A DNA stretch of 64,000 nt, taken from positions 1,178,001 through 1,242,000 of the forward strand of contig NZ_LT635475.1 of NCBI RefSeq assembly GCF_900120165.1, in the 5' to 3' direction. Each line of letters begins with the position of its first letter. Position 1 is the first letter of the stretch. The notes below the pieces were generated by a model. That model was not told where the DNA came from. It ran no database searches and saw only the letters and a list, made by a program, of their open reading frames with translations. The translations under genes and the position numbers were made by a program. This DNA comes from Ezakiella massiliensis. GTDB lineage: Bacteria; Bacillota; Clostridia; Tissierellales; Peptoniphilaceae. Of the stretch, positions 321 through 59,960 are shown piece after piece.

Positions 321-941
321 ATGAAATTTAAAAATATTATTTTTGATGTGGACGGGACTCTTTTGGATTCCCGTTCGCAGACTATAGAGGCTTTTGACCG
401 CCTGGCCATGGATAAAATTGGCCGCCACTTGGAGGGGGAGGAGAGAGACTTTGCCTTTCACAATCCTTCGTTGGAGACTTTGAAGGCCTTAGGGCTAGAA
501 ACCAATGAGGAAAATATGGCCGAGCTTTACAGGCACTTTCACGATTTGTCTGGGAGTTTGAAATTTTTCCCCGGCATGAAGGAGGTCTTGGACCAAATAA
601 AAACTAAAGTTAATTTTATGGGGATGGCGTCCAACCGCGACATCGACGAGTGCGAATACGCCCGGGCCCACAATGGTCTGGGTGTCTACTTTGACGACTA
701 CGCCTGCAGGGACCATGTGGCTAATCCCAAACCCTCTGGCGACATGCTGGTCTGGTATATGAAAAAGCACGGACTAAATCCGGCCGAGACCATTTATATT
801 GGCAATGCTGTGACCGACCATATGGCCGCAATCGACGCAGGAATAAGTTACGGAATTGCAGAGTGGGGGACCACGGAATATCTACAGGAAAAGGGGATTT
901 CATTTAAAGAGCCAAAAGATATTCTCAAAATTTGCGGTTAA
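321..941 (+). CDS. HAD-superfamily hydrolase (phosphoglycolate phosphatase-like)
   Basis: A 206-residue cytoplasmic HAD phosphatase. Motif I DVDGT is at residues 9-13 with the nucleophilic Asp. An S within MASNRD serves as motif II, and the Lys of NPKPSGD as motif III. Motif IV reads IGNAVTD instead of the usual GDxxxD, so the first acidic residue is Asn, which could lower activity or alter metal binding. The helical cap (residues ~17-85) resembles PGP/Gph-type enzymes; the substrate is unknown. It starts directly after the upstream stop codon. The C-terminus (I-C-G-stop) is encoded by the first bases of an intergenic fold-back repeat, so the repeat appears to have replaced the native 3' end. 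Confidence 0.8.
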   Translation: MKFKNIIFDVDGTLLDSRSQTIEAFDRLAMDKIGRHLEGEERDFAFHNPSLETLKALGLETNEENMAELYRHFHDLSGSLKFFPGMKEVLDQIKTKVNFMGMASNRDIDECEYARAHNGLGVYFDDYACRDHVANPKPSGDMLVWYMKKHGLNPAETIYIGNAVTDHMAAIDAGISYGIAEWGTTEYLQEKGISFKEPKDILKICG

Positions 942-1115
942 AATCGCGATATTCTCGTGAAATTTAATCGGTTTGTCTACCATAAAGGTAGACGCTACAT
1001 GACCGATTAAATTTTTCGCGTCGAATCTCATCGAAATTACGAAGCCCTGCCCAAGAGGTCAATTTCCCGTAGCGGCGATCCTGAAATGGTCGCCAAGAAA
1101 TTGACCGATTGGTGA
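929..1115. repeat. Fold-back repeat mosaic with nested hairpins
   Basis: The stretch starts at the AATTTGCGGTTAA that supplies the stop codon of the HAD gene. Arms ATTTAATCGG (962-971) and CCGATTAAAT (1003-1012) enclose an inner hairpin GTCTACC..GGTAGAC (975-993) followed by GCTAC. A second nested pair lies at 1058-1107: outer stem GGTCAATTTC/GAAATTGACC encloses GGCGATC..GGTCGCC preceded by GTAG. No U-tract follows, so these are not ordinary terminators. Bases 1116-1230 show nothing further. Confidence 0.75.
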
Positions 1116-1237
1116 ATCTTACGGCCAAAGCAAATTAAGATTGATACAAAAGTAAAACGATTTTCAGAACGTTGTAGCAGAAAAAATTTTGCCCTAAAAG
1201 TTATACATTATAAATTAAATATGTGCTCATTTGTTGT

Positions 1238-1266
1238 TTGTTCTTTGAGAAATTTTGTGCTATAAT
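1238..1266 (+). promoter_or_regulatory. Predicted sigma-A promoter of the corrinoid transporter leader
   Basis: TTGTTC (1238-1243) and TATAAT (1261-1266) are separated by 17 bases, just upstream of the riboswitch. The -10 is consensus and the -35 is imperfect. Confidence 0.55.
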
Positions 1267-1282
1267 CTCCCTGTAAACAATT

Positions 1283-1415
1283 TAATGTGTGAGCAAAAGG
1301 GAAGTTGGTTTAAGCCACACGGTCTTCGCCACTGTAAAAGCCGAGGGTGCATCTCACTTGACGGGAAGGGATGTATTTGTTCGAGGCAAAGAGTCAGGAT
1401 ACCTTTCACATGTAA
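1283..1415 (+). ncRNA. Cobalamin riboswitch (B12 aptamer)
   Basis: The leader carries hallmark blocks of the adenosylcobalamin-class riboswitch in order: AAAAGGGAAG near 1296, the B12-box-like GCCACTGTAAAAGCC (1328-1342), and GAGTCAGGATACC (1391-1403). Flanking arms ATGTGTGA and TTTCACAT can pair as P1. It lies directly in front of an ABC importer operon, the usual target. Ligand binding is expected to repress transport genes when cobalamin is plentiful. Confidence 0.9.
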
Positions 1416-1430
1416 TTTCTTTACGAAAGA

Positions 1431-1466
1431 TAGAGAAGTTTATTTTAACTTCCTCTATATTTTTAA
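1431..1466 (+). terminator. Riboswitch-controlled transcription terminator
   Basis: TAGAGAAGTT (1431-1440) pairs with AACTTCCTCTA (1447-1457) with one bulge and is followed by TATTTTTAA. It sits between the B12 aptamer and the AAGGAGG ribosome-binding site at 1465-1471, which fits an expression platform acting by premature termination. Confidence 0.7.
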
Positions 1467-1479
1467 GGAGGATTTTTTT

Positions 1480-4323: not shown

Positions 4324-4347
4324 CACGCCTCAAAGCGTGTTTTTATT
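4322..4347 (+). terminator. Intrinsic terminator of the corrinoid transporter operon
   Basis: ACACGC-CTCAAA-GCGTGT followed by TTTTATTT begins within the ATPase stop codon. Confidence 0.8.
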
Positions 4348-4504
4348 TGTGCTTGATTGAAATTGATTAGGAAAGGCACTTAAGATATGCTGATATTAAT
4401 CCGCACTAGATAATGTTTTGCTCATTTGACTGGACTTATTTTTTTTTTTTGATATAATTGTGATATAATAAAGCATAATAAATAAAAAATATTTAGGAGG
4501 CTTT

Positions 4505-5077
4505 ATGATTTTAGCATCATCTTCGCCCAGGCGGAGGGAAATCCTTGAAATGTTTGGTATTGATTTTGTGACCATGGCGCCGGACATTGACGAGGATATT
4601 ATAAGAAATAAATATGATTTGGCGGACAAAAATGAGAGGGAAAAGTGTTTGAAGGCCCTGGCTCTGGCAAAGGCCAAGGCTATCCAAGAAAAGGTCGGCG
4701 ATGACCAGATTATTTTGGCGGCTGACACCATGGTCTTTGCAGACAGGCCACTGGGCAAGCCCAAAGATGACGAGGACGCTCTTGAAATGCTAAAATCTCT
4801 AGCAGGCAAAAGCCATGAAGTCTTAACGGGTTTTGCTATTATAGGTAAATATGATATAATTAACAAAACGGTTACATCCACAGTTCGTTTTATCCCCATG
4901 GATGAGAATTATCTGGCCTTTGCCAAAGCCTATGTGAAGGATGGTTATTCCACGGGCAAGGCGGGGGCTTATGGGATCCAGGATAGGGGGGCGTATTTTG
5001 TGGATATGATTCAAGGCGATTATTATAATGTTGTGGGGTTACCTATAGAATCTATAAGGCATATTATTTGCGGTTAA
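4505..5077 (+). CDS. maf: Maf-family nucleotide pyrophosphatase
   Basis: A 190-residue Maf/YhdE-type protein beginning ILASSSPRRREIL, the diagnostic N-terminal loop, followed by the ADTMV and GKP motifs. Such enzymes hydrolyse non-canonical or canonical nucleoside triphosphates such as dTTP or UTP and are linked to septum formation. The start at 4505 is supported by AGGAGG at 4495-4501. As with the HAD gene, its last residues (I-I-C-G-stop) are encoded by the leading bases of a fold-back repeat. The upstream region has TTGACT, a 12-T run and two TATAAT-like boxes. Confidence 0.88.
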   Translation: MILASSSPRRREILEMFGIDFVTMAPDIDEDIIRNKYDLADKNEREKCLKALALAKAKAIQEKVGDDQIILAADTMVFADRPLGKPKDDEDALEMLKSLAGKSHEVLTGFAIIGKYDIINKTVTSTVRFIPMDENYLAFAKAYVKDGYSTGKAGAYGIQDRGAYFVDMIQGDYYNVVGLPIESIRHIICG

Positions 5078-5370
5078 TTTCGCGACATTCTTGTGAAAAA
5101 ATTTTTTAGTCCTCGATGTACGCTCTAGTACACCTGCGTCCTAAAAAATTTGTTTCACGTCGAATCTCATCGAAATTTCCTCGCAAATTTAGAGAATCAA
5201 ACGTATGTACATTAGAACGTTGGTAGTGGCCGATTTATTTCGGCCATCTCGGGCACGGGGTTCGATGCCCCGTGGTCGAGGATGTAGGCTACGGATATTT
5301 ATGTAGCCATGTACCGTCTGGTTTATCCCAGACACCTCGTACGAGCAGGCTCGATGCCGCGAGGACGAGA
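5066..5370. repeat. Fold-back element plus two hairpin pairs
   Basis: The fold-back at 5066-5190 has left arm ATTTGCGGTTAATTTCGCGA and right arm TCGAAATTTCCTCGCAAATT. Inner arms ATTTTTTAG and CTAAAAAAT surround a GTACGCTCTAGTAC core. It supplies the maf stop codon. Downstream are GTAG + GGCCGATTTATTTCGGCC (5228-5245) with a CTCG..CGAG hairpin (5248-5280), then GTCTGGTTTATCCCAGAC (5316-5333) with a second CTCG..CGAG hairpin (5336-5369). No gene is visible between 5078 and 5435. Confidence 0.75.
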
Positions 5371-5435
5371 TTAAATTTGCAACATTTCTGCCATACATAT
5401 GGCGTATAAAAAATTAAAACAAAAGGAGAGGGATT

Positions 5436-7217
5436 ATGAAAGAGAAAGATGAAAAGGTTAAGGGGGCAAGTTTAAAGGGTTATGGCCTGATTTTTAAAAC
5501 TGCTCCTCTGGCAGTGATTTTTCACGTTGTTTTTACAATTCTTAGGGGCCTTAGCCCAACTGCCATTGCAATTTTTATGGGTCTTACAGTTGATGCTGTT
5601 ATTGACCAAGTTGGAAAGATGGATGATCTGTCTTTAGTATTTAAGTATTCGGGAATTTTGTGTGCCCTTATGGCTTATCAGATGATTTCCAAACCGCTTT
5701 TGGAATGGCTATCATCTGTTATTAACGTTAAGCTTGAGGGTGTTTTAAATGAGATGATTATCGACAAGCATACCAAATTAAAATATTGGCGGCTAGAGGA
5801 TAATGAGTCTTTGGATCTTATTAAGCAGGTTGATAAGGATACTTTGTCACAATTTTCAAATGTGATTATGACTTATCAGCAGATGTTTATTGTAGGTTTT
5901 ACAGTTGTGTCTGCTATGATTACCATTACTAGGTATGTTTGGTGGATTGTGCCGGTTACTTTGGTAATTGTTATGCCGCTTTTGTGGCTGGCCAATAAGG
6001 GTGCTAAGAAGACCTATGAGGAAGACAAGTCTTTGAATGACAAAAAGAGGTATGTCGATAGTCTTGATGAGGTGCTTTTGAGCAAGGAGGCCGCAAAAGA
6101 ACGTTACTTATTTGATTATTCTGACCATTACAACGAAAAAGACCTAGATAAGTTTATGCAAATTCACGATGCTCAGTTTAAGGTTATGCGTGACTGGTTT
6201 ATTAGAAGCAAGGCTGGGTCAGTTGTTTTTTCTTTTATTGTGCTTTCAGTAGCTATTATTCTTTTACAACCTTTAAGGGCTGGCCTTATTAGTTTTGGTA
6301 TTTATTCATCCTTGATCGGTCTTATTACTGCCCTTGTTCAAAGCGTTGGCTGGACTGTGCCCCAGGTTATGGATGGATTTACAACCGCCAAATTATTTTT
6401 CAATGACTTCTTTAAATTTATGTCCTTTGACGAGGAAGAGAATGCTCTCGTTAGACCAAATGAAGTTCCTGATTTTGAATCTATAGAATTTAAGGACGTT
6501 CATTTTACTTATCCGGGTACAGATCGTGAAATCCTAAAGGGTATGAGTTTTAGATTTGATAAGGGCCGTCACTATTCATTGGTAGGTGCTAATGGTAGCG
6601 GTAAATCTACAGTTATAAAGCTGATGCTTGGTCTTTATGATAATTATGATGGGGAAATTTTGATAAATGGAGTAGACGCTCGTACAATTCCTCTTGCTAA
6701 GAGGAGGGCGTATTTCTCTGCAATCTTCCAAGATTACACGATTTTTGGAACAAGCATTAGAAATAATATTGCTATGGGATATGAGAATCGGGAAGCAAAA
6801 GTCGATGAAACCATTGACGATTTGGATTTGAGGGATATGGTTAACAAGTTGCCGGACGGCATCGAAACTGAAATTGGCAAGCTGGACCAAGAGGGAGCAG
6901 ATTTATCTGGCGGTCAAAGACAGAGAATAGCCTTAGCTCGTGCGGTTGTATCCGATTCTCCAGTTATAGTTCTGGACGAGCCAACTGCCGCTATGGACCC
7001 AACAACTGAATCCAAGCTTTACCATAAAATGGGCAAGCTAACCAGTGGCCGCACAACCGTTTTTATTTCACACAGGTTGGGGTCCACTTCGCTTAGCGAC
7101 GAAATATTTTTGTTTAAAGATGGCAAGGTTTATGAGCACGGCACACATGGAGAAATGATGGCTTTGGAGGGAGATTATTTTGAAATGTATAACTCACAAA
7201 AGGAATGGTATTTATAA
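5436..7217 (+). CDS. ABC exporter half-transporter (membrane + ATPase), subunit 1
   Basis: A 593-residue type-IV exporter half. A six-helix membrane domain occupies residues ~20-320, followed by an ATPase domain with Walker A GANGSGKST (~386), Q-loop AIFQDYTIFG, signature LSGGQRQR and Walker B VIVLDEPTAAMD. It starts at ATG 5436 after an AAAAGGAGAGG ribosome-binding site. It is coupled by overlap to a second half-transporter, so the pair is probably a heterodimer. The exported substrate, perhaps a drug, lipid or peptide, is not evident; no peptidase domain or peptide gene is nearby. Confidence 0.85.
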   Translation: MKEKDEKVKGASLKGYGLIFKTAPLAVIFHVVFTILRGLSPTAIAIFMGLTVDAVIDQVGKMDDLSLVFKYSGILCALMAYQMISKPLLEWLSSVINVKLEGVLNEMIIDKHTKLKYWRLEDNESLDLIKQVDKDTLSQFSNVIMTYQQMFIVGFTVVSAMITITRYVWWIVPVTLVIVMPLLWLANKGAKKTYEEDKSLNDKKRYVDSLDEVLLSKEAAKERYLFDYSDHYNEKDLDKFMQIHDAQFKVMRDWFIRSKAGSVVFSFIVLSVAIILLQPLRAGLISFGIYSSLIGLITALVQSVGWTVPQVMDGFTTAKLFFNDFFKFMSFDEEENALVRPNEVPDFESIEFKDVHFTYPGTDREILKGMSFRFDKGRHYSLVGANGSGKSTVIKLMLGLYDNYDGEILINGVDARTIPLAKRRAYFSAIFQDYTIFGTSIRNNIAMGYENREAKVDETIDDLDLRDMVNKLPDGIETEIGKLDQEGADLSGGQRQRIALARAVVSDSPVIVLDEPTAAMDPTTESKLYHKMGKLTSGRTTVFISHRLGSTSLSDEIFLFKDGKVYEHGTHGEMMALEGDYFEMYNSQKEWYL

Positions 7218-8989
7218 TGAAGGGTCTAAAGAAATTTTTTAAAACATTTAAAGATGTTACACCAATCGCATTAAAACCTATGTTAAAGAAAAACTCCAAA
7301 GACTTTTGGATGACTTTAATATCATCTTTTTTGCAATCGACATTTTTGGGATTAAATATAATTGTTCAGGCAAAATTTTTCCAATATGTAAATGAGTATA
7401 TAAATGGTGGGCCAGTCCAAACTGTTGCATTGTGGATGGGAATATTCTTTTCGTTTATAATATTTCAGCAAATTATAAATGCAGTTGTAAATTTCTACAT
7501 TAACAAGTTTATCCAATCTGGCTACAAGGTTATAGAAAACAATATGATGAGGAAGATAAAAACTTTAAAGCCCCTCTATTTTGAAGACCCAGACAATCTC
7601 TTGAAGCTTTCAAGGGCAAGGGCAGGGGCTCAAGACGTCATCCTTTTCTTGGTCCTTTTGATTATGAGCATAGCTGGATACCTACCACTTTTTATCATTC
7701 CAACAGTCTACATGGCAGGCAAAAATGCAAGTTTGGCCTTAATCTTTCCACTGCTCTTGCTACCAGCGATTTTGGCTTATTTTGTCAAGGTAAAAATATT
7801 TGTGAAAATGCGCAAAGAAGAAACACAAATAACCAGAGTTCGTGATGAGTACAGAAAATACATTGTGGGGCCAGCTGCCAAAGAAATGCGTATGGGGGGC
7901 TTTTATAATTTCTTGTACGGAAAATACAAAACTGGATGGGAAGCAGTAAAAAGCTTAAAGCTAAAGGCAAATTTAAAAATATTTATAATAGAAACCCTCC
8001 TGCAACTAGTATCTGCAAGTGCATATGTCGGAGTAATTTATCTGATAATTCGAGCCACCCTCTTGGGTGATGCTGATGCGGGATTTTTAGCAGCCACAAT
8101 TGGGTCAATGGAATTTATGTTTAAAATGATTGAAGAATTTTTGACCAACTTCTTCCAACCAATAGCGGAGAGATATAGCGGTATAGAATTTTACTTGCAG
8201 TTAATGAATGAACCAGACCAGGAAATCGGGAAAAATCTTACAGATATAGAAAAAATAGCTGTAAGAAATCTGTCATTTAAATATCCAAAAGCTGAAGACT
8301 ATGCAGTAAAAGATGTTAACCTAGACCTAGAGAAAAATAAATTACTCGCAATAGTTGGGGAAAACGGGTCAGGCAAGTCGACCCTCTTAAAATTAATCCT
8401 TGGCCTATATGATAGCGCGGAAGGGAATATAAAATACTACGACAAAATGAATCAAGAAATTATAGGACCCAACCTAAGGGAAAAAGCAAGCGCAATCTTC
8501 CAAGATTATTATAAATACAAAATGCAATTGGATGAAAACATAGAAATCTCAGACCTAAATAAAAATGAATCCTATAAGGGAGCCCTAGAAAAAGCTGGCC
8601 TCTCAGAAGAAATGGCAATCTTTCCCCAAGGAGGATCTACAATTTTGGCCCGGGACTTCCACGGAGTTGATCTCTCCGGAGGCCAATGGCAAAGGGTGGC
8701 AATCGCCCGTGGCGTCTACCGCGACCGCGACATCATCGCCTTTGACGAACCGACAGCAGCCATCGACCCACTGGAAGAATCTGCATTATATAATAAACTC
8801 CGCGAAATCTCTGAAGGCAAAATTGGCCTCTTGATTACTCACAGAATTGGATCCGCCAGGATCGCCGACGAAATCGTCGTCATGAATGGGGGCAAGGTCA
8901 GCGAAAGGGGCACGCATGAGGAGTTGATGGAGAAACAGGGAGAATACTTTTCAATGGTCGAAGCACAGGCCAAATGGTATGAAAAATAA
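7217..8989 (+). CDS. ABC exporter half-transporter (membrane + ATPase), subunit 2
   Basis: A 590-residue partner of the preceding gene. I choose ATG 7217, which overlaps the upstream stop as TAATG; an in-frame ATG at 7205 is possible. The membrane domain covers residues ~25-310. The ATPase domain has Walker A GENGSGKST, Q-loop AIFQDYYKYK, an altered signature LSGGQWQR, and Walker B IIAFDEPTAAID. Heterodimeric exporters often have one degenerate catalytic site, but both Walker B glutamates are intact here. A fold-back repeat begins at its stop codon. Confidence 0.83.
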   Translation: MKGLKKFFKTFKDVTPIALKPMLKKNSKDFWMTLISSFLQSTFLGLNIIVQAKFFQYVNEYINGGPVQTVALWMGIFFSFIIFQQIINAVVNFYINKFIQSGYKVIENNMMRKIKTLKPLYFEDPDNLLKLSRARAGAQDVILFLVLLIMSIAGYLPLFIIPTVYMAGKNASLALIFPLLLLPAILAYFVKVKIFVKMRKEETQITRVRDEYRKYIVGPAAKEMRMGGFYNFLYGKYKTGWEAVKSLKLKANLKIFIIETLLQLVSASAYVGVIYLIIRATLLGDADAGFLAATIGSMEFMFKMIEEFLTNFFQPIAERYSGIEFYLQLMNEPDQEIGKNLTDIEKIAVRNLSFKYPKAEDYAVKDVNLDLEKNKLLAIVGENGSGKSTLLKLILGLYDSAEGNIKYYDKMNQEIIGPNLREKASAIFQDYYKYKMQLDENIEISDLNKNESYKGALEKAGLSEEMAIFPQGGSTILARDFHGVDLSGGQWQRVAIARGVYRDRDIIAFDEPTAAIDPLEESALYNKLREISEGKIGLLITHRIGSARIADEIVVMNGGKVSERGTHEELMEKQGEYFSMVEAQAKWYEK

Positions 8990-9114
8990 TTTGTTGCTAA
9001 AATTGCGCCTTTTTGCAGTGTTCGACTTTTTCGTCACTGCGGCGTAGGCTCTACTACGCCTCATTCCTAAAAAGTCTCAAGCTACAAAAATCCATCAATT
9101 TTATCTAACAAATT
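8988..9114. repeat. Fold-back repeat element
   Basis: The left arm AATTTGTTGCTAAAATTG overlaps the stop codon of the exporter gene. The right arm CAATTTTATCTAACAAATT closes the element. The centre holds CACTGCGGCGTAGGCTC and ACTACGCC. A near-identical core recurs at 47625-47710, and a relative lies at 22189-22318. Confidence 0.75.
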
Positions 9115-9409
9115 TTGTATAGAGAAGATAATTTGTTTTTCCTCGCAAATTTAGAGAGGGATAAAAGTCGAGAGAATATAATTTTATTTAACAAATTATG
9201 TAAAGATGAATCTCATCGAAATTCCCTTGCAAATTTAGAGAGGGAGAAAGGTAAAACGATTTTTAAGAACGTTGTAGAGGCTGCCTTTATGGCAGCCATT
9301 AAAATCGAGGGTTGAACCCTCGATTTTATTTACAAAAATCCATCAATTTTATCTAACAAATTTTGTATAGAGAAGATAATTTGTTTTTCCTCGCAAATTT
9401 AGAGAGGGA
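9084..9409. repeat. ~78-bp direct repeat pair with hairpins between
   Basis: Bases 9084-9161 recur almost exactly at 9332-9409 (248-base offset). Between them are the GTAG hairpin GGCTGCCTTTATGGCAGCC (9279-9297) and a perfect hairpin AAAATCGAGGG/CCCTCGATTTT (9301-9326). An open frame at 9115-9315 is repeat-derived and not a gene. Confidence 0.7.
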
Positions 9410-9449: not shown

Positions 9450-9516
9450 TGTAGCCATGTAGCGTCTGGTTTATCCCAGACATCTCGAACGCGGAGACTC
9501 GATGTCCCGCGATCGA
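9450..9516 (+). repeat. GTAG hairpin plus CTCGA hairpin
   Basis: GTAGC is followed by GTCTGGTTTATCCCAGAC, then a longer hairpin opening CTCGAACGCGG and closing CCGCGATCGAG. The same two-hairpin unit with other stem sequences occurs at 5228-5280 and 24296-24360. Confidence 0.7.
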
Positions 9517-14262: not shown

Positions 14263-14398
14263 TTTGCGGTTAATTTGCGGTTAATTTCGCGATATTCTCG
14301 TGAAAAATTTTTTTAGTCCTCGATGTACACATCAGTACACCTGCGTCCTAAAAAAATTATTTCACTTCGAATCTCATCGAAATTCCCTCGCAAATTTC
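14261..14398. repeat. Fold-back repeat element (~125 bp)
   Basis: Left arm AATTTGCGGTTAATTTCGCGA and right arm TCGAAATTCCCTCGCAAATT, with inner arms ATTTTTTTAG and CTAAAAAAAT around GTACACATCAGTACAC. The motif TTTGCGGTTAA occurs twice at the left edge. Confidence 0.75.
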
Positions 14399-14502: not shown

Positions 14503-14780
14503 TGTAGGGTCCACTTTATGTGGACCGAAAAGTCTTGCCCTAAAAGTAAGGCGAAGCCATCTTGAACACGGGGTTCGATGCCCCGTGGTCGAGGATATAA
14601 CATACGAACGCTTTTATAGCCATGTAGCGTCTGGTTTATCCCAGACATTCGGCGAATGTGATTGCCCCTTGTGGGTATGAACATTCGTCGTAAAAACCAA
14701 TAGATTACGGATATTTTTAAGAATGTTGTATGGGCGATCCTGAAATGGTCGCCAAGAAATTGACCGATTTGTATTAATGA
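14503..14780. repeat. Cluster of GTAG and CTCGA hairpins
   Basis: Contains GGTCCACTTTATGTGGACC (14508-14526), a hairpin built on CACGGGG/CCCCGTG (near 14568-14590), GTCTGGTTTATCCCAGAC (~14630-14647), the CATTCGG module with CGAATGT/ACATTCG arms (14649-14725) that recurs at 29095-29170 and 39049-39118, and GGCGATC..GGTCGCC (14730-14753) with a trailing GAAATTGACC. No gene fits between 14263 and 14797. Confidence 0.7.
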
Positions 14781-15575: not shown

Positions 15576-15850
15576 AATTTGCGGTTAAAACGGCGACCTT
15601 CACTCGTTTCGAAATGTTTGCTCACTGCGGAGGGCACTTGAGCCCACCTCATTCGCAAAATTTCTGTACTTCGTGAATTTCATCCGTTTTTCCTCGCAAA
15701 TTGTATGTAGATGCACACCTGCGTCCTAAAAAATTTATTTCACTTCGAATCTCATCGAAATTACGAAGCCCTAGCCCAAGAGGGCAATTTCCCGTAGCGG
15801 CGATCCTGAAATGGTCGCCAAGAAATTGACCGATTGGCTAGCAGGTCTCG
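15576..15850. repeat. Fold-back repeat and nested hairpin module
   Basis: The fold-back at 15576-15702 runs from AATTTGCGGTTAAAACGG to CCGTTTTTCCTCGCAAATT, with AAATGTTTGCTCACTGCGGAG / CTCATTCGCAAAATTT inside. At 15785-15835, GGCAATTTC..GAAATTGACC encloses GTAG + GGCGATC..GGTCGCC, almost the copy seen at 1058-1107. No gene is present between 15572 and 15945. Confidence 0.7.
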
Positions 15851-17737: not shown

Positions 17738-17775
17738 AGAAAAAAGCCGCGAAAATTCACGGCTTAATTTTTTTA
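17738..17775 (-). terminator. Terminator of serpin-like gene 1
   Basis: On the minus strand, AAGCCGTG..CGCGGCTT followed by TTTTCTT lies just downstream of the serpin stop codon. Confidence 0.75.
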
Positions 17776-19014
17776 TTGGGGATTTGTGATAAGTGCCATA
17801 AAAGTTATGAGTTCGCCGTCCACGGATGGGCTGGTGATTATGACAAAATATGGCTTGTCGCAGATGACTTTTAAGATTTTTACTTCTTCGATTGCTGGTT
17901 CTGACTTTACTCCTGCCAGTATGGTCACGGCCTTGGCTTCAACTTTTTTCTCGTCTATCTTGAGTTTGGCCACCTGCTTGATGGACCTGGTCCTATAGGT
18001 CTCATCGCTTGGATTTTGGACATTTTGGTCTACGGCAAAGTCTTTATTTATAAATTCACTCTTATTATTTTCCATGGTTTTTAAGAGGTCGATATTAGAA
18101 GTTAAATCAATCTTTGGCGTTTTCAAAACGACATCGTAGCGGTCAAAGTATTTTTCATTTGTAATGGCATCGACCATGTCTTCAAGGGCCTTCTTGTAAA
18201 GGTCTTCACGGCTCATCCCGTCCACTTCCTTGGGGACCATAAAGTATACGCGGGCCCTTTCCTTGTCAACCTTGGCTTCCTTGTAGACGGCGGTAAAATA
18301 TTCAGTTTGGTAGCCGATTTTGCCCAGAAGCTCTTGATTCATAAAGGGGGCTGTGACTTCGCCGTCAAAGGTCTTGAACTTGTCGTCTGCCGTTAAGTCT
18401 TTGTCAAATTCATCTTCCCAGGCTCCAAAAAATCTGGTCGCATTTATAATTGAGAGGTCCATGTCCTTGTAGTTGGGTTCCAAGAGGACTTCGCCCAGGA
18501 CTTGCTTTTGCAATTCTACTGCCAAGTCTTTGGCTTGGTCTGGGAAGCCGACGACCTTTAAAATTCCGTCGCCGCCCAAGGCCTTGATGCCCGTATCCGG
18601 CTCATTGTTAACTAAAAACAGAGATCTGGAATCGATTAGCGATGGCTTTAGCTTGTAGGTCTGTAAATCCTTCATAGGAAAGCCGGGGAAGACCTCTTCG
18701 CTTTCCATAATTTTGGAATAACGGGCCAGTAAACTATAAACAGAATTTGCGGAATGGGGCGAGTAAATTAAATTGTCCCCTTTTAAAATTTCTGAATTTA
18801 TGTTGCCCTTTAAAATATTGGACGCATCCATTATATCTTCAAAGCCCTTGAGGCCGGCCGCATTGTTAAAGGCGATGGTCTTTTCGTCAGGATCGGCAAT
18901 TTTATCCTTGATAGTGCCGAAATTTTTATCGCCGCCAATTGTATATTCGGATTTTTTGCAGGCGGCAAAATTTATGGCCATTAATATTGATAGAATTAAA
19001 AGAATTTTTTTCAT
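17773..19014 (-). CDS. Serpin-like lipoprotein 1
   Basis: A 413-residue lipoprotein (signal peptide, lipobox FAAC) with a serpin fold: LIYSPHSANSVYSLLARYS (helix A region), INATRFFGAWEDEFDK, TAPFMNQ, VVLKTPKIDLTSNIDLLKTM, QVAKLKIDEKKVEAKAVTI (hinge) and a C-terminal KPYFVIITSP..ELITFMALITNP (strand 5B). The hinge deviates from the inhibitory consensus: Lys and Val stand where Gly and Thr/Ser are expected. Inhibition of a protease is therefore uncertain. A tandem paralogue lies upstream on the same strand. The minus-strand promoter is TTGCAT-17-TATAAT (19063-19091). A surface-anchored protease inhibitor acting on host or self proteases is the inferred role. Confidence 0.75.
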   Translation of the reverse strand: MKKILLILSILMAINFAACKKSEYTIGGDKNFGTIKDKIADPDEKTIAFNNAAGLKGFEDIMDASNILKGNINSEILKGDNLIYSPHSANSVYSLLARYSKIMESEEVFPGFPMKDLQTYKLKPSLIDSRSLFLVNNEPDTGIKALGGDGILKVVGFPDQAKDLAVELQKQVLGEVLLEPNYKDMDLSIINATRFFGAWEDEFDKDLTADDKFKTFDGEVTAPFMNQELLGKIGYQTEYFTAVYKEAKVDKERARVYFMVPKEVDGMSREDLYKKALEDMVDAITNEKYFDRYDVVLKTPKIDLTSNIDLLKTMENNKSEFINKDFAVDQNVQNPSDETYRTRSIKQVAKLKIDEKKVEAKAVTILAGVKSEPAIEEVKILKVICDKPYFVIITSPSVDGELITFMALITNPQ

Positions 19015-19062
19015 CTTTTCCTCCTTTTGTTTGCGATTAATTTCGTAAAATTACTTTACTAT

Positions 19063-19091
19063 ATTATAAGGCAAAACAAATGATAATGCAA
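19063..19091 (-). promoter_or_regulatory. Promoter of serpin-like gene 1
   Basis: On the minus strand: TTGCAT (19091-19086), 17-base spacer, TATAAT (19068-19063). Confidence 0.65.
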
Positions 19092-19115
19092 ATTTTTTGC
19101 CAGAGCCGGCAAGTC

Positions 19116-19144
19116 TTGACAAAAAATCAGATGTGTTATTATAC
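19116..19144 (+). promoter_or_regulatory. Orphan plus-strand promoter between the serpin paralogues
   Basis: TTGACA (19116-19121) and TTATAC (19139-19144) resemble the tRNA-Thr/tuf promoter at 20567-20595 and sit at the equivalent place relative to a serpin gene. There is no gene in front of it, only a terminator. It looks like a by-product of the serpin tandem duplication. Confidence 0.5.
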
Positions 19145-19157
19145 GATTATATTGCAA

Positions 19158-19190
19158 GAAAAAAGCCGCAGGTCTTGCGGCTAATTTTTT
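19158..19190 (-). terminator. Terminator of serpin-like gene 2
   Basis: Minus strand: AGCCGCAAGACCTGCGGCT followed by TTTTTTC, downstream of the gene at 19214-20443. Confidence 0.7.
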
Positions 19191-19213
19191 TGCTTGAAAT
19201 TCTTTAAATGTTT

Positions 19214-22189: not shown

Positions 22190-22597
22190 TAATTTGTTGC
22201 TAAAATTGCGACTTTTTGCAGTGTTCGATATTTTGCTCATTCCGCTGTACACTCTAGTACAGCTCACTCGTCAAAATATCTCAAGCTACAAAAATTCATC
22301 AATTTTATCTAACAAATTGTATGTATAATTGTATACAGAAGATAAATATGAAATAAAAGAAGCAGTTACTTTTGTAGCTGCTTTTTTAGTATTTAAAATA
22401 CATATTTTTATTCAATTTTCGGGATGTGATTTTTGGCTTTTGTGGCAAGACTCTTGGGCGACATTCTCCTCAGATTGTTGCAACCAATCAGGAAAAATTC
22501 GGTCCACTTGCAGCCCTGCCCAAAAGAGCAATATAATGGCTGAATGTATTTCTCATACGGATATTGCTAAGAACGTTGTAGGGGCCAGCTTTATGTG
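22187..22597. repeat. Fold-back element and hairpin repeats downstream of the tuf relic
   Basis: The fold-back at 22189-22318 has arms AATTTGTTGCTAAAATTG and CAATTTTATCTAACAAATT. A hairpin AAGCAG..CTGCTTTTTT at 22358-22388 can act as a terminator. Bases 22510-22585 match 59734-59805 (GCAGCC.TGCCCAA.AGA.CAATA through GAACGTTGTAGGGG). The final GTAG hairpin GGGGCCAGCTTTATGTGGCC is interrupted by the IS at 22601. No gene is credible here. Confidence 0.65.
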
Positions 22598-22764
22598 GCC
22601 TGGGGTGTTCCCAAAAAGTTGGACAAATAATTTGTTCATCTAAAAGAATGCTTTCTACTTGCTAACTAAATTTTTGAATGCGATTGTCAAGGGTTGCGAA
22701 GCAACTTGCATAGCCCTTGACATAAAGCTTATTCAAAAATTTAAAATTTGGCAAGAAAGCTTCT

Positions 22765-24189: not shown

Positions 24190-25086
24190 GCCCGAAAAAT
24201 ATCGATTACACCATCGGTGTATGAGATATTTTTAATAATACAAGCACAAAACATTTTATGGATGTATATTATTGTATTATATAAATTTATAAGAACGTAG
24301 GTAGAGTCCGATTTATTTCGGACATCTCGAACGCGGAGACTCGATGTCCCGCGGTCGAGGTTTATTCAACGGATGCGTTTTATAAATTGCAATTTTTTTT
24401 ATGGATGTATATTATTGTATTATATAAATTTATAAGAGCGATGTAGGGGCGATCCTGAAATGGTCGCCATAAAAAATTGGGGGTTCGATGCCCCCGATTT
24501 TTGTTTTGTTGGATGTATTTTATTTTATAGATGATTTGCGCCGTCAATCGGTAAAAAATTTTGGTCACCATTTTCATCAGATTGTTACAACCAATCAAAC
24601 AAAATTTTTTGTCCGAAATAAATCGGACGCTACCTAAATTTTGTTTTCTTGGGCAACAATTTGCGAGGGAATTTTTATTCTCTTGATCTTTCTCCCTCTC
24701 TAAATTTGCTAGGAAATTTCGATGAGATTCGAAGTGAAATAATTTTTTTAGGACGCAGCTTTACATCTATTCATATATTTCGCTGGAAAATTCGATGAGA
24801 TTTGGAGCGGACGAATTTTTTGCCGACGCAGGTGTACATATACACATAATTTGTGAGAAAAAACTGATGGATTTTTGTAGCTTGAGACTTTTTGACGAGT
24901 TTGGCTGCCATAAAGGCAGCCTCTACAACGTTCTGAAAAATTTTTTTATTTTCTCTACATAATTTGTGAGGAAAATTCGATGAAAAACGCGAAGTGCAGA
25001 AATTTTGCGAATGAGGTGTACAGATGGTACTCCGCAGTGAGCAAACATTTCGAAACAAGCGTTTTTCGCGAATTTAACCACAAATT
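24190..25086. repeat. Dense repeat mosaic between the IS and the response-regulator gene
   Basis: Holds a 40-bp direct repeat (24254-24293 and 24397-24436, TTTTATGGATGTATATTATT...), the GTAG hairpin GTCCGATTTATTTCGGAC with a CTCGA hairpin (24296-24360), GGCGATC..GGTCGCC plus a GGGGG/CCCCC hairpin (24441-24503), reverse-oriented GTCCGAAATAAATCGGAC-GCTAC (24611-24633), GGCTGCCATAAAGGCAGCC (24903-24921) and fold-backs at ~24655-24780, ~24775-24860 and 24956-25086. The last reaches the stop codon of the gene at 25086. No gene is supported. Confidence 0.7.
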
Positions 25087-28652: not shown

Positions 28653-28900
28653 CAATTTGCGGTTAAATTCGCGAAAAACGCTTGTTTCGAAATATTTGCA
28701 AACTGCAGCCCTGCCCAAGAGAGCGAGTGATAACGACGCTCGATTGGTATGCAGCGACTCACGCAACCTGTTGTTCAATCGTTCGACCGAAGGGAAAAAC
28801 GATTGAGTACAACAGTCTGAGGAAACGGAGGGCACTCGAGCCCACCTCATTCGCAAAATTTCTGCACTTCGTGTTTTTCATCGAATTTTCCTCGCAAATA
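28653..28900. repeat. Fold-back element with enlarged centre
   Basis: Arms AATTTGCGGTTAAATTCGCG (left) and CATCGAATTTTCCTCGCAAA (right), with AAAAACGCTTGTTTCGAAAT / AAAATTTCTGCACTTCGTG inside. The centre carries an inserted block with CAACCTGTTGTTCAATCG and CGATTGAGTACAACAG, which can pair imperfectly. It lies between the divergent sensor gene and the stalk-domain gene. Confidence 0.65.
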
Positions 28901-29059: not shown

Positions 29060-29170
29060 ATTTGTAGCCATGTACCGTCCACATTTTCGTGGACATTCGG
29101 CGAATGTGATTGCCCCTTGTGGGTATGAACATTCGTCGTATAAACCAATAGATTACGAATATTTTTGATA
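29060..29170 (+). repeat. GTAG hairpin plus CATTCGG module in a 5' leader
   Basis: GTCCACATTTTCGTGGAC (29077-29094) is followed by the module CGAATGT..ACATTCG (29101-29135) that encloses GCCCCTTGTGGGT. The module recurs at 14649-14725 and 39049-39118. It lies between the promoter and the start codon at 29206, so it would be part of the mRNA leader. Confidence 0.65.
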
Positions 29171-37299: not shown

Positions 37300-37445
37300 G
37301 GCCGAAATAAATCGGCCGCTACAAATTCCGCCTCGTATGCAAATGGTCGCCAAGAAATTGACCGATTAAATTTCATAAAAATATCGCAAATTTAACACGA
37401 AATATGGATATCTCGAACGCGACGACTAAATGTCCCGTGGTGGAG
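37300..37445 (+). repeat. Right half of the IS-split concentric palindrome
   Basis: GGCCGAAATAAATCGGCC-GCTAC is followed by CCGCCTCGTATGCAA (37328-37342), GGTCGCC (37345-37351) and TGACCGATTAAATTTCAT (37359-37376), complementary to the left half. A degenerate CTCGAACGCG..CCGTGGTGGAG hairpin lies at 37411-37445. Confidence 0.75.
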
Positions 37446-38984: not shown

Positions 38985-39172
38985 TTGTAGCCATGTGTAG
39001 AGGCGATCCTGAAATGGTCGCCATCTCGAACACGTGGACATTCGGCGAATGAGATTGCCCCTTGTGGGCATGAACATTCGTCGTAAAAACAAATAGATTA
39101 CGGATATTTTTAAGAACGATGTAACGGCGATCCTGAAATGGTCGCCACTCGAACGCGGAGCGTTCGAGACAT
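38985..39172 (+). repeat. GTAG hairpins and CATTCGG module in a 5' leader
   Basis: GGCGATC..GGTCGCC occurs twice (~39002-39023 and ~39124-39146). The CATTCGG module with CGAATG/ACATTCG arms (39049-39118) lies between, and CTCGAACGC-GGA-GCGTTCGAG follows (39147-39168). All lie between the promoter and the start codon at 39194. Confidence 0.65.
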
Positions 39173-40059: not shown

Positions 40060-40490
40060 GCGTGCACAGTCGAACCCTCAACCGGGGTGGACCCGGTATC
40101 GGGCCCGAAATGTCCGAAATAAATCGGACGCTACCCGCGATACGCCACGAAATACCGATGCCATTTGTACAAATAATCTTCATTTAAAAATCGCTTTGCG
40201 GTTGTAGCGGCGATCCTGAAATGGTCGCCATAAAAAATTGGGGGCTCGATGCCCCCGATTTTTGTATTGTTGGATATTTTTATTTTTTTATGTATTTGTT
40301 TTTTATATGATGTGGCTTTTGTGGTGCTCCTAAAGGGGAATTTGACACCCCCACGACTATTTCACGTTAAATTTTGTAAAAAGACTTGTTTCGAAATTTT
40401 TTGTGAATTTCGATGTACAGGAGTACACCTCATTCACAAAATTTCTGTACTGCGCCTTTTTCCTAAAATTTTCCTGTGAAATAGCGTTGT
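40060..40490. repeat. Hairpin repeats and a fold-back element
   Basis: Contains TCGAACCCTC..-type hairpin (40072-40105), reverse-oriented GTCCGAAATAAATCGGAC-GCTAC (~40109-40131), GGCGATC..GGTCGCC with a GGGGG..CCCCC hairpin (~40205-40260) and a fold-back at 40360-40483 with TACAGGAGTACACC at its centre. No gene is present between 39992 and the tRNA. Confidence 0.65.
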
Positions 40491-47604: not shown

Positions 47605-47900
47605 TCGCTTTAAATTTGCGGTTAAAATTGCGGCTTTTTGCAGTGTTCGACTTTTTCGTCACTGCGGCGTAGGCTCTACTACGCCTCATTCCTAAAAAGT
47701 CTCAAGCTACAAAAATCCATCAATTTTTCCTCGCAAATTTAGAGAGGGAGAAAGCAAATATTATTTTACAAATGGTATTAATCTTTTAGATCGCTTTGCG
47801 GTTGTAGGGTCCACTTTATGTGGACCGAAAAGCATTGCTTCAAAAGCAAAAATTTGAGGAGAATGTGGTCCGAAAAACATTGGTCTCCCTTGTGGACGGG
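47605..47900. repeat. Fold-back element and GTAG hairpin
   Basis: The fold-back at 47612-47740 runs from AAATTTGCGGTTAAAATTGCG to CCTCGCAAATTT, with a core nearly identical to 9005-9085. The GTAG hairpin GGTCCACTTTATGTGGACC (~47808-47826) is followed by CGAAAAGCATTG. Bases 47900-48004 hold no gene. Confidence 0.7.
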
Positions 47901-49799: not shown

Positions 49800-49876
49800 C
49801 ACCCTCGAACCCTCAACCGAGTTGAACCCGGTATCGAGCCCGAAATGTCCACCATAAAGGATGGACGCTACACGAA
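49800..49876. repeat. CTCGA-type hairpin and reverse GTAG hairpin
   Basis: CTCGAACCCTC..TCGAGCCCGA (~49803-49842) is followed by GTCCACCATAAAGGATGGAC-GCTAC (~49846-49870). Confidence 0.6.
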
Positions 49877-53525: not shown

Positions 53526-53538
53526 AATCAATCTCCTT

Positions 53539-54725: not shown

Positions 54726-54754
54726 TAGAGAAAGATTATCATTTACATTTTTAT

Positions 54755-54783: not shown

Positions 54784-54849
54784 TGGGTATACATTGAAGG
54801 GGCAAGTAAATAGTTTTTTAGGGATTTACATATTTTTTCTAGAAATTTT

Positions 54850-54893: not shown

Positions 54894-54939
54894 ATGTTTT
54901 TATGAGGGAACTCACAAATATATATTTTAAGGAGGAGCT

Positions 54940-55671: not shown

Positions 55672-55672
55672 T

Positions 55673-57085: not shown

Positions 57086-57093
57086 GTGATAGT

Positions 57094-58011: not shown

Positions 58012-58012
58012 A

Positions 58013-59230
58013 ATGCTAGACGCAAAACAAATCAAAAAAGATTTTCCAATCCTGACCGAGGGCGTCCACTATTTGGACTCGGCTGCGACGACTCAAAAGC
58101 CGCAGGCAGTTTTGGATGCAGTCATGAATTATTACAAGTCTGCAAATGCAAATCCCCACAGGTCGGCCCACAAATTTGGTCAAGCGGCAACTGAAGCTTA
58201 CGAAAACGCCAGGGCTACTGTAGCAAAATTTATAAATGCAAAATCCGAACGTGAAATCGTCTTTACCAAAAACGCAACTGAATCCCTAAATATCCTCTCC
58301 AATTATTTTATGAGGACACTTAAAGATGACGACGAAATCTTAATTACAATCGCCGAACACCACGCCAACTTTGTCAACTGGCAAGAAGTGGCAAAGGCGA
58401 CTGGGGCAAAACTCGTCATCGGATATTTAAATGATAAAAGAGAACTTAACACAGACGAATTTTTATCAAAGGTAAACGCCAAGACCAAGGTCGTTTCATT
58501 TCAAGAGGCGTCAAATGTCACAGGCTATATTACAGACGCCAAAAAATTGATCAAGGAAATCCGCGCCAAGTCGGACGCGACCATTATTGTGGACGGGTCC
58601 CAATCCGTTCCCCACAAGAAAACTGACGTGGTCGATATGGACTGCGACTTTTTGGCCTTCTCCGGCCACAAGATGCTAGCCCCAATGGGCATCGGCGTTT
58701 TGTACGGCAAGGAAGAAAAGCTAAATGAATTAAGTCCCCTCCTTTATGGGGGAGATATGATCGAATACGTCTACGAAACCCACGCGACCTATCTGGATGC
58801 GCCAGCCCGTTTTGAAGCAGGCACGCAAAATGTAGGCGCAGCTGTGGGACTGGCAGCGGCCATAGATTATTTAAATGCCATCGGCATGGACCAGGTCCAC
58901 GCTTATGAAGACCACTTGGCAGAAATCGCTTACAATAAATTATCTGCCATTGACGGCGTGCAAATGTACACGGCCGACTCCAAGGACAGACTTGCAGTTA
59001 TGTCTTTTAATATTGCAGACGCCCACCCCCACGACATTGCTACGATCTTAGATACCAGGGGGGTCATGATAAGAAGCGGCCACCACTGCGCCCAACCCTT
59101 GCACAGGTACTTGGGCAGGCCATTTTCTGCCCGCGCATCATTTTATATTTACAACACAGAAGACGAAATCGACAAACTAGTCGAGGCCATAGAATATGTA
59201 AAGGAGGTTTTAAAAATTGGATCTAGATAG
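58013..59230 (+). CDS. sufS: Cysteine desulfurase SufS
   Basis: A 405-residue group-II cysteine desulfurase: PLP lysine in FSGHKMLAPMGIGVLYG, histidine in EHHANFVNW, and the catalytic Cys in RSGHHCAQPLHRYLG. It takes sulfur from cysteine and passes it to SufU. It overlaps sufU by 14 bases. Confidence 0.95.
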   Translation: MLDAKQIKKDFPILTEGVHYLDSAATTQKPQAVLDAVMNYYKSANANPHRSAHKFGQAATEAYENARATVAKFINAKSEREIVFTKNATESLNILSNYFMRTLKDDDEILITIAEHHANFVNWQEVAKATGAKLVIGYLNDKRELNTDEFLSKVNAKTKVVSFQEASNVTGYITDAKKLIKEIRAKSDATIIVDGSQSVPHKKTDVVDMDCDFLAFSGHKMLAPMGIGVLYGKEEKLNELSPLLYGGDMIEYVYETHATYLDAPARFEAGTQNVGAAVGLAAAIDYLNAIGMDQVHAYEDHLAEIAYNKLSAIDGVQMYTADSKDRLAVMSFNIADAHPHDIATILDTRGVMIRSGHHCAQPLHRYLGRPFSARASFYIYNTEDEIDKLVEAIEYVKEVLKIGSR

Positions 59231-59645
59231 AATATACACAGATTTAATCTTGGAGGCCTCCACATCCAAGAAAAACCAAAGGGAAATTGAAAATCCCGAT
59301 GTGGAAGAGCTGGGCCACAACCCATCATGTGGGGACGAAATTACAATCGTGGTCAAATTTGATGGCGACAAAATTGCAGACGCCTCCTATCACGGGGAAG
59401 GCTGCGCAATATCAAAGGCCTCCACATCCTTTATGATCGACACCATTAAAGGACAGACGATCGATGAAGCCAAGGTCATCATCCAAAGCTATTTGGATAT
59501 GATCAGAGGCGAAAAGCTCACGGCTGAGCAAATGAAAAGCCTAAAGGACGCTAGAGTCCTGGAAAATATTAAAAACATGCCAGCCAGAGTAAAGTGTGCG
59601 ACACTTTCATGGCACACCATGCAAAACATCTTGGCAGATAAATAA
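59217..59645 (+). CDS. sufU: SufU-type zinc-dependent sulfur transfer protein
   Basis: A 142-residue SufU with the three Cys zinc/sulfur sites NPSCGDEI, GEGCAIS and RVKCATLSW plus Asp in the first motif. It accepts persulfide sulfur from SufS. The start is the TTG at 59217 (TTGGATCTAGATAG), after AAGGAGG (59203-59209). It is the last gene of the suf operon. Confidence 0.92.
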   Translation: MDLDRIYTDLILEASTSKKNQREIENPDVEELGHNPSCGDEITIVVKFDGDKIADASYHGEGCAISKASTSFMIDTIKGQTIDEAKVIIQSYLDMIRGEKLTAEQMKSLKDARVLENIKNMPARVKCATLSWHTMQNILADK

Positions 59646-59689
59646 TTTTGTAGATAGAAATAACTTGCAAGAAAAATTTGTGCAAGTAT

Positions 59690-59960
59690 TAGCAAGAGAA
59701 TAAAAATTTCGCGAAGCGGGTAGCGTCCGATTGCAGCCACGCCCAAGAGAACAATAGAATGGATGAATACGTTTATCCTACGTATATTGCTTAGAACGTT
59801 GTAGGGGCTACTTTATGTAGCCCGAAAAGTCAAAAATACTCGCGCAACTTGTTGCCCAAGAAAACAAAATTTAGGTAGCGTCCGATTTATTTCGGACAAA
59901 AAATTTTGTTTGATTGGATGCAACAATCTGAGGAGAATTTCGGACAAAAATTTTTATTCG
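59690..59960. repeat. Hairpin repeats downstream of suf
   Basis: Bases 59734-59805 match 22510-22585. The GTAG hairpin GGGGCTACTTTATGTAGCCC (~59802-59821, followed by CGAAAAGTC) is intact here and shows what the IS-interrupted copy at 22577 looked like. GTAGC-GTCCGATTTATTTCGGAC follows near 59876-59899. No gene is present between 59646 and 60227. Confidence 0.7.

Follow-up and report, generated by a model that had tools for sequence, protein, structure and literature searches.

A family of GTAG-tagged hairpins with variable stems in Ezakiella massiliensis, probably REP elements linked to a single RAYT gene

Why should a short intergenic hairpin keep its tag and much of its loop from copy to copy while both arms of its stem change together? 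The question is raised by a 64-kb stretch of the Ezakiella massiliensis chromosome (contig NZ_LT635475.1, positions 1,178,001 to 1,242,000; hereafter the window), for which a sequence-only reading had described at least 25 such copies. A domesticated transposase is believed to disperse GTAG-tagged REP elements. Our analysis indicates that the window hairpins are very probably REP elements of this GTAG superfamily, spread and kept by a REP-associated tyrosine transposase (RAYT) that would recognise a folded single strand of DNA.

We located 25 hairpins of the described form in the window, so that the earlier count stands. The units are 22-26 nt long and 21 of the 25 carry an exact GTAG at one side only, which corresponds to the size and tag of REPs (a palindrome of 20-40 bp, only one end of which bears an unpaired GTAG or GT[A/G]G). 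Seventeen have a loop of the TTTAT type (16 tagged GTAG and one GTAC). Among them, GTAG-C-GTCTACC-TTTAT-GGTAGAC was found at 975..998 (-), GTAG-A-GGCTGCC-TTTAT-GGCAGCC at 9274..9297 (+) and 24903..24926 (-), and GTAG-G-GTCCAC-TTTAT-GTGGAC at 14504..14525 (+) and 47804..47825 (+). The stem GGCCGA-TTTATT-TCGGCC follows GTAG-T at 5223..5245 (+) and GTAG-C at 37300..37322 (-); GTCTGG-TTTATC-CCAGAC has the tag GTAC at 5311..5333 (+) and GTAG-C at 9459..9481 (+) and 14624..14646 (+). GTCCGA-TTTATT-TCGGAC follows GTAG-A at 24301..24323 (+) and GTAG-C at 24611..24633 (-), 40112..40134 (-) and 59875..59897 (+), the copies at 24611 and 59875 lying within a longer palindrome, AACAAAATTT...AAATTTTGTT. The remaining three are GTAG-G-GGCCAGC-TTTAT-GTGGCC at 22578..22600 (+), with an imperfect stem and overlapping a 105-aa ORF, GTAG-C-GTCCAtCC-TTTAT-GGTGGAC with a T bulge at 49847..49871 (-), and GTAG-G-GGCTAC-TTTAT-GTAGCC at 59801..59822 (+). 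A second type, GGCGAtCC-TGAAAT-GGTCGCC, accounts for seven copies, all on the + strand: five tagged GTAG (1069..1094, where the tag is followed by C, 15794..15819, 24443..24468, 38997..39022 and 40204..40229), one GTAT (14728..14753) and one GTAA (39121..39146). The last copy, at 29072..29094 (+), combines a GTAC tag and the loop ATTTTC with the arms GTCCAC...GTGGAC. All eight stems named beforehand are present and each has its partner, although GGCGATC is confined to the second type with its bulge. The constancy claimed for loop and flank was true in part: the TTTAT-type loop is found in 17 of 25 copies, but eight have another loop, four a degenerate tag, and the flanks vary, as does the base directly 3' of GTAG. 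The foot of the stem, G-[T/G]-C, is almost invariant and the variation affects chiefly the inner pairs.

The same reading knew of no family with this rule. It is in fact the published definition of REPs, as worded in the relevant passages of PMC3686654 and PMC3733652; the former describes a 5' GT(A/G)G tetranucleotide ahead of a palindrome of variable sequence.

A strict pattern that included the stem foot in both arms matched 89 copies in the whole genome, and its reversed control none. As this pattern holds GTAG, the first and third pairs and TTTAT constant, 89 is a lower bound and is silent on how often those elements change. The broad pattern GTAG-N6-9-TTTAT showed no excess in the genome (227 matches versus 230 for the reversed control) because chance matches in AT-rich DNA swamp the signal, and the strict pattern was used for this reason. 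A scan of the window that disregarded the tag and required a YTNRT loop between pairing arms gave 18 hairpins, of which 14 had GTAG, one GTAC and three neither; GTAG was at the scanned one-base spacing in 11 of the 14 and one base farther out in the other three, whose stems have seven pairs. The same scan of Markov-resampled windows found a mean of 1.2 hairpins, none with GTAG. Considering all perfect GC-rich 6-bp hairpins of the window, GTAG stands ahead of 14 of 208, and it occurs at only 334 of 127,920 positions. Like REPs, the copies are many and mostly intergenic, 84 of the 89 being clear of mechanically called ORFs of at least 100 aa.

Do the two arms really change together? In 71 simple copies from the whole genome, 98.6% of the stem cells were paired, versus 73% after the arms had been shuffled, with pairs 1 and 3 set by the search pattern in these and the following percentages. 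The arms covary, covariation being a check that the sequence-only reading had proposed. In sets of distinct sequences the values were 99.0% (n=17) and 94.3% (n=20). A first MAFFT alignment, which misaligned copies of different loop length, was excluded from the counting. There are 17 distinct 6-bp arm pairs in the genome, 12 of them fully paired; in the other five the mismatch is at position 4 (four cases) or position 2 (one case). This is the variable palindrome with conserved complementarity that characterises REPs. In a relative (G036) there is a Y-R pair within the loop, which was C-G in 35, T-A in five and otherwise in two of 42 copies.

The genome has a single RAYT (TnpAREP) gene, at G000:C1:891403-892080. 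Six strict hairpins are found within 850 bp upstream and one about 80 bp downstream, and the nearest at each side are inverted with GTAG outermost, i.e. the arrangement of a REPtron, in which a RAYT lies between inverted copies of one REP. In E. peruensis the RAYT gene also has hairpins at both sides, the nearest upstream copy being in the opposite direction. The protein matched Pfam Y1_Tnp with 26.9 bits (cut-off 23); against NCBIfam NF047646 it reached 68.2 bits (E 6.7e-19), below the curated cut-off of 80. A search of solved structures with the single sequence gave no matches. With a profile of 58 relatives the best was 4er8 'TnpArep' (E 6.7e-10), above chains named merely transposase; we take 4er8 to be the E. 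coli enzyme. Several of the 120 relatives listed bear the name RayT in their source. T23, H77-x-H79, Y145 and N149 are invariant among the relatives, and by analogy with known enzymes the first three would be the N-terminal Thr, the HUH motif and the catalytic Tyr of a RAYT, in both the 14- and the 58-row alignments. Beside the putative catalytic Tyr, N149-P150 agree with the RAYT motif NP(L/V)(R/K)xG (PMC2817692), and the next residues, MAAS, depart from it.

Larger intergenic repeats accompany the hairpins. One could ask whether the hairpins are MITEs whose short inverted repeats were mobilised by a DDE enzyme, either a different transposase acting on double strands or that of an IS since lost. 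Such repeats alongside copies and the longer outer palindromes at 24611 and 59875 would fit, but the flanking modules vary among copies while hairpin and tag remain constant, and the same hairpins lie at both sides of the RAYT gene, so we consider this origin extremely improbable.

The distribution among genomes points to the RAYT as well. In six Ezakiella genomes, gene and repeats are present together in two (89 and 96 copies) and both absent in four (0 copies), and this co-occurrence, along with the hairpins flanking the gene, supports the REP/RAYT reading. Beside a RAYT relative of Peptoniphilus sp. BV3C26 there are seven GTAG hairpins. At RAYT-like loci of the same order that match in the core, GTAG hairpins appeared at three of nine (20 in total; other non-overlapping orders of the tag letters gave 0-1) and none was nearby at the other six. 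In other phyla, 12 of 13 RAYT loci had at least one (43 in total; 3-8 for the other non-overlapping orders).

If the enzyme works like its relatives, it would be a single-strand HUH/Y1 nuclease binding one DNA strand folded as a hairpin. It would read GTAG and the loop and need a paired stem of little defined sequence, and it may have distributed the repeats through intergenic DNA. The stem could then drift or be exchanged provided that pairing stays. A requirement for pairing and not for sequence would let many self-complementary stems arise next to a tag and loop that stay constant. That the Ezakiella REPs moved by means of the RAYT we infer from sequence. Points against this reading are the NCBIfam score below its cut-off, a RAYT motif preserved only as NP, the six loci of the order that lack hairpins, the mismatched arm pairs and, as given below, the unpaired cells left by one-sided changes, the few copies with CT at the 3' side and the lack of an excess of inverted pairs.

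The sister species allowed a comparison site by site. For 81 of the 89 copies a 500-bp anchor was found in the E. peruensis sequence retrieved, which covers part of that genome, and a single alignment spans just 19. Alignments shorter than 500 bp (five) were excluded from the orthologue count as possible repeat-to-repeat matches, and so was L141 because it is repeated by L142; the copies at 890560, 890700 and 890840 belong to a single tandem array, making their interspecies pairing uncertain. At 761907 the third pair is C-G in one species and T-A in the orthologue, so that the compensatory change proposed from the window is supported both genome-wide and at one orthologous site. The other proposal, arms changing as a unit, has one clear case, 811082, where the whole hairpin was exchanged between conserved flanks, and a weaker one at 557196. 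Both one-sided arm changes between the species give an unpaired cell. Four slots of the window were also compared, with flanking genes about 90% identical. In three of them both species have a copy on the same strand with different stems, and the fourth has no copy in E. peruensis. Of the 60-nt flanks, 11 of 12 comparisons were at the random level (30-35 identical columns; random 60-mers had a mean of 33 and a maximum of 41), the conserved one being to the right of 14504 (55/60). Flanks at this level mean that the compared slots show turnover, not clean exchange, and together with the different copies they suggest separate insertions. This speaks against the idea that the same REPs are immobile now, old copies being held by gene conversion and host selection (e.g. 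as chromosome-structure sites) with the RAYT domesticated for another function. That REPIN populations are said to last for millions of years (PMC8049555), that the RAYTs of the two species are 94% identical with the same upstream context, that the exchange at 811082 resembles conversion and that the copies are restricted along the chromosome are all in its favour, and we hold it to be rather unlikely.

Selection on a folded RNA, to which the sequence-only reading had attributed the complementary arms, was not borne out. On that view the hairpins would function within mRNAs as attenuators, terminators or stabilisers of the 3' end, and RNA folding would select the compensatory changes. The intergenic position of 84 copies would agree with it, as would the 31 sense versus 17 antisense copies between tandem genes and the opinion of Di Nocera et al. 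(PMC3733652) that many REPs are transcribed with a possible RNA role. However, Rfam at gathering cut-offs found nothing at the hairpins, the only matches in the window being two tRNAs and a cobalamin riboswitch. A T-rich 3' flank is present in just 5 of 84 copies, on which basis intrinsic terminators were rejected. Copies between convergent, divergent and tandem genes (24, 12 and 48) are roughly proportional to the intergenic bases of the same stretches (11975, 5996 and 27116 bp), and conserved RNA elements would not be expected to have 81 of 89 copies anchored in E. peruensis and yet 19 spanned by one alignment. The one-sided GTAG and the linkage to the RAYT are also left unexplained, and we find an RNA function very doubtful. 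A folded DNA strand recognised by the RAYT accounts better for tag, loop and free stems.

The placement of these REPs along the chromosome is uneven. All 89 strict copies lie outside a 596-kb region that surrounds the replication terminus and makes up a third of the chromosome. G021, of the same family, likewise has its terminus in a large zone (1.115 of 2.51 Mb; as large in 9 of 20000 simulations) where its type of hairpin is missing. Exclusion from the terminus as a general rule was rejected: G036 has copies close to it, and its largest copy-free gap contains dnaA and does not reach significance (2059/20000). Co-orientation with replication was found in 57 of 89 copies (p 0.011, the copies not being independent), and we claim no strand bias from this. 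Strict pairs within 350 bp (n=22) were -+ 7, +- 4, ++ 7 and -- 4; with 11 of 22 inverted, these strict copies show no excess of closely spaced inverted pairs such as REPINs would give. TnpAREP usually cleaves at a CT (or CA) that adjoins the hairpin; counting the 3' side, CT lies within 7 nt in 7 of 84 intergenic copies. As a speculative proposal, which we regard as unlikely, the RAYT, or conversion primed by it, might swap whole hairpins at fixed sites, keeping tag and flanks and renewing stem and loop; this would be the missing mechanism of the 'orthoswitch', with copies kept out of the terminus third and their placement following chromosome organisation. The empty third raises the question of whether replication or chromosome domains influence where REPs insert or are retained. 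One RAYT and many stems in one genome, with a sister species for comparing sites, make REP stem switching directly testable.

How do these elements compare with known systems? Three features are possibly new: the host group, the replacement of a hairpin at an orthologous site whose flanks are conserved, and the 596-kb absence. A literature search, outside which most subscription journals lie, found no paper on REPs or RAYTs in Firmicutes, Bacillota, Clostridia or genera of Peptoniphilaceae. The RepRanger table names three Bacillota genomes under its own REP definition (PMC12306157), and according to a 2018 survey (PMC6006769) REP-type classes occur chiefly in larger genomes and in Cyanobacteria, Bacteroidetes and several classes of proteobacteria. 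The 24 GTAG families of Di Nocera et al. (2013), including the Stenotrophomonas SMAG, are described in PMC3733652 as having, like those found here, an unpaired GTAG at one end, stems mostly of 6-9 bp, a short loop, an intergenic location, sub-families with alternative complementary stem bases and a degenerate tag in a minority. Most of them are spread genome-wide, whereas strict copies are missing from one third of the Ezakiella chromosome; the 5-nt TTTAT/YTNRT loop and the small-genome Gram-positive anaerobic host are also different, the main text of that paper having no Firmicutes, Clostridi-, Peptoniphilus, Finegoldia or Anaerococcus. With our data, the known range of GTAG REPs and RAYTs would come to include Gram-positive anaerobes with small genomes (Ezakiella, Peptoniphilus and relatives). 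In Stenotrophomonas (Nunvar 2010, 2013), REPs are likewise inverted around the rayt gene and keep their palindromy, 'suggesting selection for complementary mutations' (PMC2817692). Stem variants within a lineage ('orthoswitch') and an abundance that mostly tracks RAYT presence (PMC3686654) are further likenesses, but the 17 distinct 6-bp arm pairs (12 fully paired) of Ezakiella coexist with a single RAYT in one genome. The REPtrons of group 3 TnpAREPs (S. maltophilia, Marinomonas) also have a short perfect palindrome, GTAG, critical loop bases and a stem that must pair but is less constrained in sequence; according to PMC8266576, stem mismatches cost them activity, stem swaps cost less, and GTAG and certain loop bases are needed, which fits the reading proposed here. 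The Ezakiella RAYT differs from them by additional residues at its C-terminus (about 161-226). Finally, IS200/IS605 elements share the Y1 transposase domain, and their hairpins too have a guide tetranucleotide at the 5' side (PMC8266576), while in Ezakiella the best solved relative is a TnpAREP, and dozens of gene-less hairpins accompany one gene copy.

When the window (contig positions 1,178,001-1,242,000) was scanned for perfect GC-rich 6-bp hairpins, GTAG stood ahead of 14 of the 208 found, while the background frequency of this tetranucleotide was 334 in 127,920 positions. A tag-blind scan, whose sole requirement was paired arms around a YTNRT loop, returned 18 hairpins, 14 with GTAG, one with GTAC and three with neither tag; in three of the 14 the tag was located one base further out, the stems being of 7 bp. 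Markov-resampled windows gave a mean of 1.2 hairpins in the same scan, none of them tagged. Including imperfect and bulged copies the total rises to 25, in agreement with the number proposed by the sequence-only reading, and the eight stems it had listed were all recovered. The loop was TTTAT in 17 copies, ATTTTC in one, and TGAAAT in the seven of a second type (GGCGA-t-CC). The tags were GTAG (21), GTAC (2), GTAT (1) and GTAA (1).

Over the whole genome (1,741,785 bp in a single contig), the strict pattern GTAGNGKCN{3,5}TTTATN{2,6}GMC, which leaves the inner arm bases unconstrained, had 89 matches, 44 of them forward and 45 reverse, whereas the reversed control had none. The 71 simple copies with 6-bp arms had standard pairs in 98.6% of the stem cells, compared with a mean of 73% (maximum 79%) when the 3' arms were shuffled. 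Counting each distinct arm pair once (n = 17, 12 fully paired), the values were 95.1% and 71% (maximum 85%). The covariation score of the ungapped alignment of these 17 hairpins was 0.547 versus 0.191 in shuffles, and 0.627 versus 0.185 for 20 distinct hairpins from two genera, in both cases with 0/500 shuffles as high. For both alignments the score was lost when the partner positions were slid, and counts of further pair types were no higher than in shuffles. The number of two-sided pairs exceeded the shuffles only in the 20-sequence set (7/500, versus 84/500 for the 17 sequences). In the relative G036, loop bases 1 and 4 covary (C-G in 35, T-A in 5 and other combinations in 2 of 42), suggesting that in TTTAT a T-A pair may close the TT, the remaining T bulging out.

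A single gene for a Y1 transposase is present in the genome (891,403-892,080; 226 aa). The NCBIfam model for REP-associated tyrosine transposases (RAYTs), the enzymes associated with repetitive extragenic palindromes (REPs), matched it at E 6.7e-19, under the curated cut-off, and a profile of 58 relatives searched against solved structures had TnpArep (4er8) as its top match (E 6.7e-10). Residues H77-x-H79, Y145, T23 and N149 were invariant in the alignments of relatives. Upstream of the gene, six strict hairpins lie within 850 bp, and downstream there is one at about 80 bp; the nearest on each side are mutually inverted with GTAG outermost. The arrangement is that of a REPtron (REP plus RAYT). 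The C-terminal tail (residues 161-226; 5884-6081 of the fetched locus L002) alone matches ORFs of five other genera (genomes G009, G018, G020, G022 and G026) at 45-53% identity, the transposase core having no match there, which points to a shared or acquired tail domain.

Among six Ezakiella genomes, this one included, the two with RAYT (the other being E. peruensis M6.X2) carry 89 and 96 repeats and the four without it, one of them 71% complete, carry none. The other 55 relatives searched gave one or two strict matches in nine, with a full palindrome by eye only in G036. Of 61 genomes, 15 gave a match to the RAYT query, in five cases via the C-terminal tail only. In other genera of the order, three of nine core-matching loci (L108, L109 and L110) had 4-10 GTAG hairpins around the gene, with stems and loops unlike those of Ezakiella, and six had none there. 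In Peptoniphilus sp. BV3C26 there are seven, of the forms GTAG-GGACCGG-TTTA-CCGGTCC and GTAG-GGACCAA-TTTA-TTGGTCC. At 13 loci of RAYT relatives from other phyla we found 43 GTAG hairpins, at least one at 12 loci and at least two at nine, versus 3 to 8 for reordered tags not overlapping the neighbours of GTAG itself; TAGG (29) and GGTA (11) were kept apart from this control, given their overlap with GTAGG and GGTAG.

Hairpins following the same rule lie near RAYT relatives in Deltaproteobacteria and Scalindua (L006, L007, L010, L013), Verrucomicrobia and Opitutus (L011, L016) and Uhrbacteria (L015); in L006, L007 and L013 the GTTCCCCGAAC core is constant and the outer pairs differ. The RAYT relative at L108 (G036:C3:741093-741566), surrounded by ten GTAG hairpins, contains a single in-frame TAG within the part that matched and may therefore be a decaying gene.

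The comparison with E. peruensis M6.X2 covers the fetched quarter of its genome, in which 81 of the 89 copies had a 500-bp anchor and 19, none within the window, were spanned by one alignment of at least 500 bp. Eleven of these (named by genome position) were identical, two (783911, 890700) had a one-sided change leaving an unpaired cell, and one (761907) had a two-sided compensatory change, C-G to T-A, with flanks identical at 78/83 positions. The whole hairpin differed in two, 811082, with flanks identical at 76/80 and one mismatch in the E. peruensis hairpin, and 557196, where only 51/84 flanking positions were identical. Two were absent (594954, 1267073) and one, adjoining the RAYT, was rearranged (891269). 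Within the window, 14 intergenic regions were tested, and for four of them a single fetched E. peruensis stretch contained the two flanking genes; three of these slots held hairpins on the same strand with other stems and one was empty. Flanks were mostly dissimilar between the species, the exception being to the right of 14504 (55/60). Thus compensation was seen at one site and clean exchange of the unit at one, while turnover of copies was common. The sequence-only reading had proposed compensatory change or arms copied as a unit; of these, arm compensation has genome-wide support in addition to its one orthologous site, and copying as a unit has one clear site. The exchange of a hairpin at a fixed site is a side finding worth follow-up.

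From the position of dnaA (1,151,445) and the change of GC-skew sign between the samples at 240 and 280 kb, the replication terminus can be placed near 0.26 Mb. Every one of the 89 strict copies is located between 557,196 and 1,702,864, the origin-proximal two thirds, leaving an empty zone outside the window (from 1,702,865 through the contig end to 557,195) of 596 kb (34%), centred at 259 kb. With the copies merged into 41 clusters, 0/20,000 uniform simulations gave a gap this large. Intergenic DNA was ~7% in ten samples inside the zone versus ~11% in ten outside, the latter chosen away from known copies, a difference that is not enough to explain zero copies. G021 has a similar gap over its terminus and G036 has none. 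We claim no rule for this unexplained regularity, also a side finding that deserves follow-up.

The window also holds a longer intergenic repeat (~130 nt) at 5066-5190, 8988-9115, 14273-14397, 15576-15701, 22191-22318, 28654-28899, 40409-40482 and 47613-47740. It has its own palindrome, whose arms differ between copies yet pair (e.g., GGCGTAG-GCTCTA-CTACGCC); no GTAG tag was seen by eye at the stem in these copies. A CTCG...CGAG hairpin directly follows several REP copies (5246-5280, 9482-9515, 24324-24360), indicating that the REPs are parts of larger mosaics. Other features are a cobalamin riboswitch match (1271-1424; 33 bits against a cut-off of 31.5), which precedes the ORFs that end at 2544 and 3568, and a tandem duplicate of a gene of ~415 aa (17766-19880; 84-87% identity over 300-nt blocks).

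Structure, covariation, RAYT linkage, co-occurrence and copy turnover are directly supported. Our literature search returned no earlier report of GTAG REPs with RAYT for the genus Ezakiella. The hairpins belong to a type already described, that of GTAG REPs accompanied by a RAYT, and the earlier view that no described family follows this rule has to be abandoned. Group 3 TnpAREPs depend on GTAG, on certain loop bases and on a paired stem, with a looser demand on its sequence (PMC8266576). By analogy, the Ezakiella RAYT would recognise the tag and the loop on one DNA strand folded as a hairpin and would need a paired stem, being less strict about its sequence. An enzyme of this type would account for constant tags and loops with changing stems, so that no RNA function, one of the two options of the sequence-only reading, is needed. 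A change of stem near a RAYT has been named "orthoswitch", with a mechanism on which its authors state that they can offer no more than speculation (Nunvar et al., 2013, PMC3686654).
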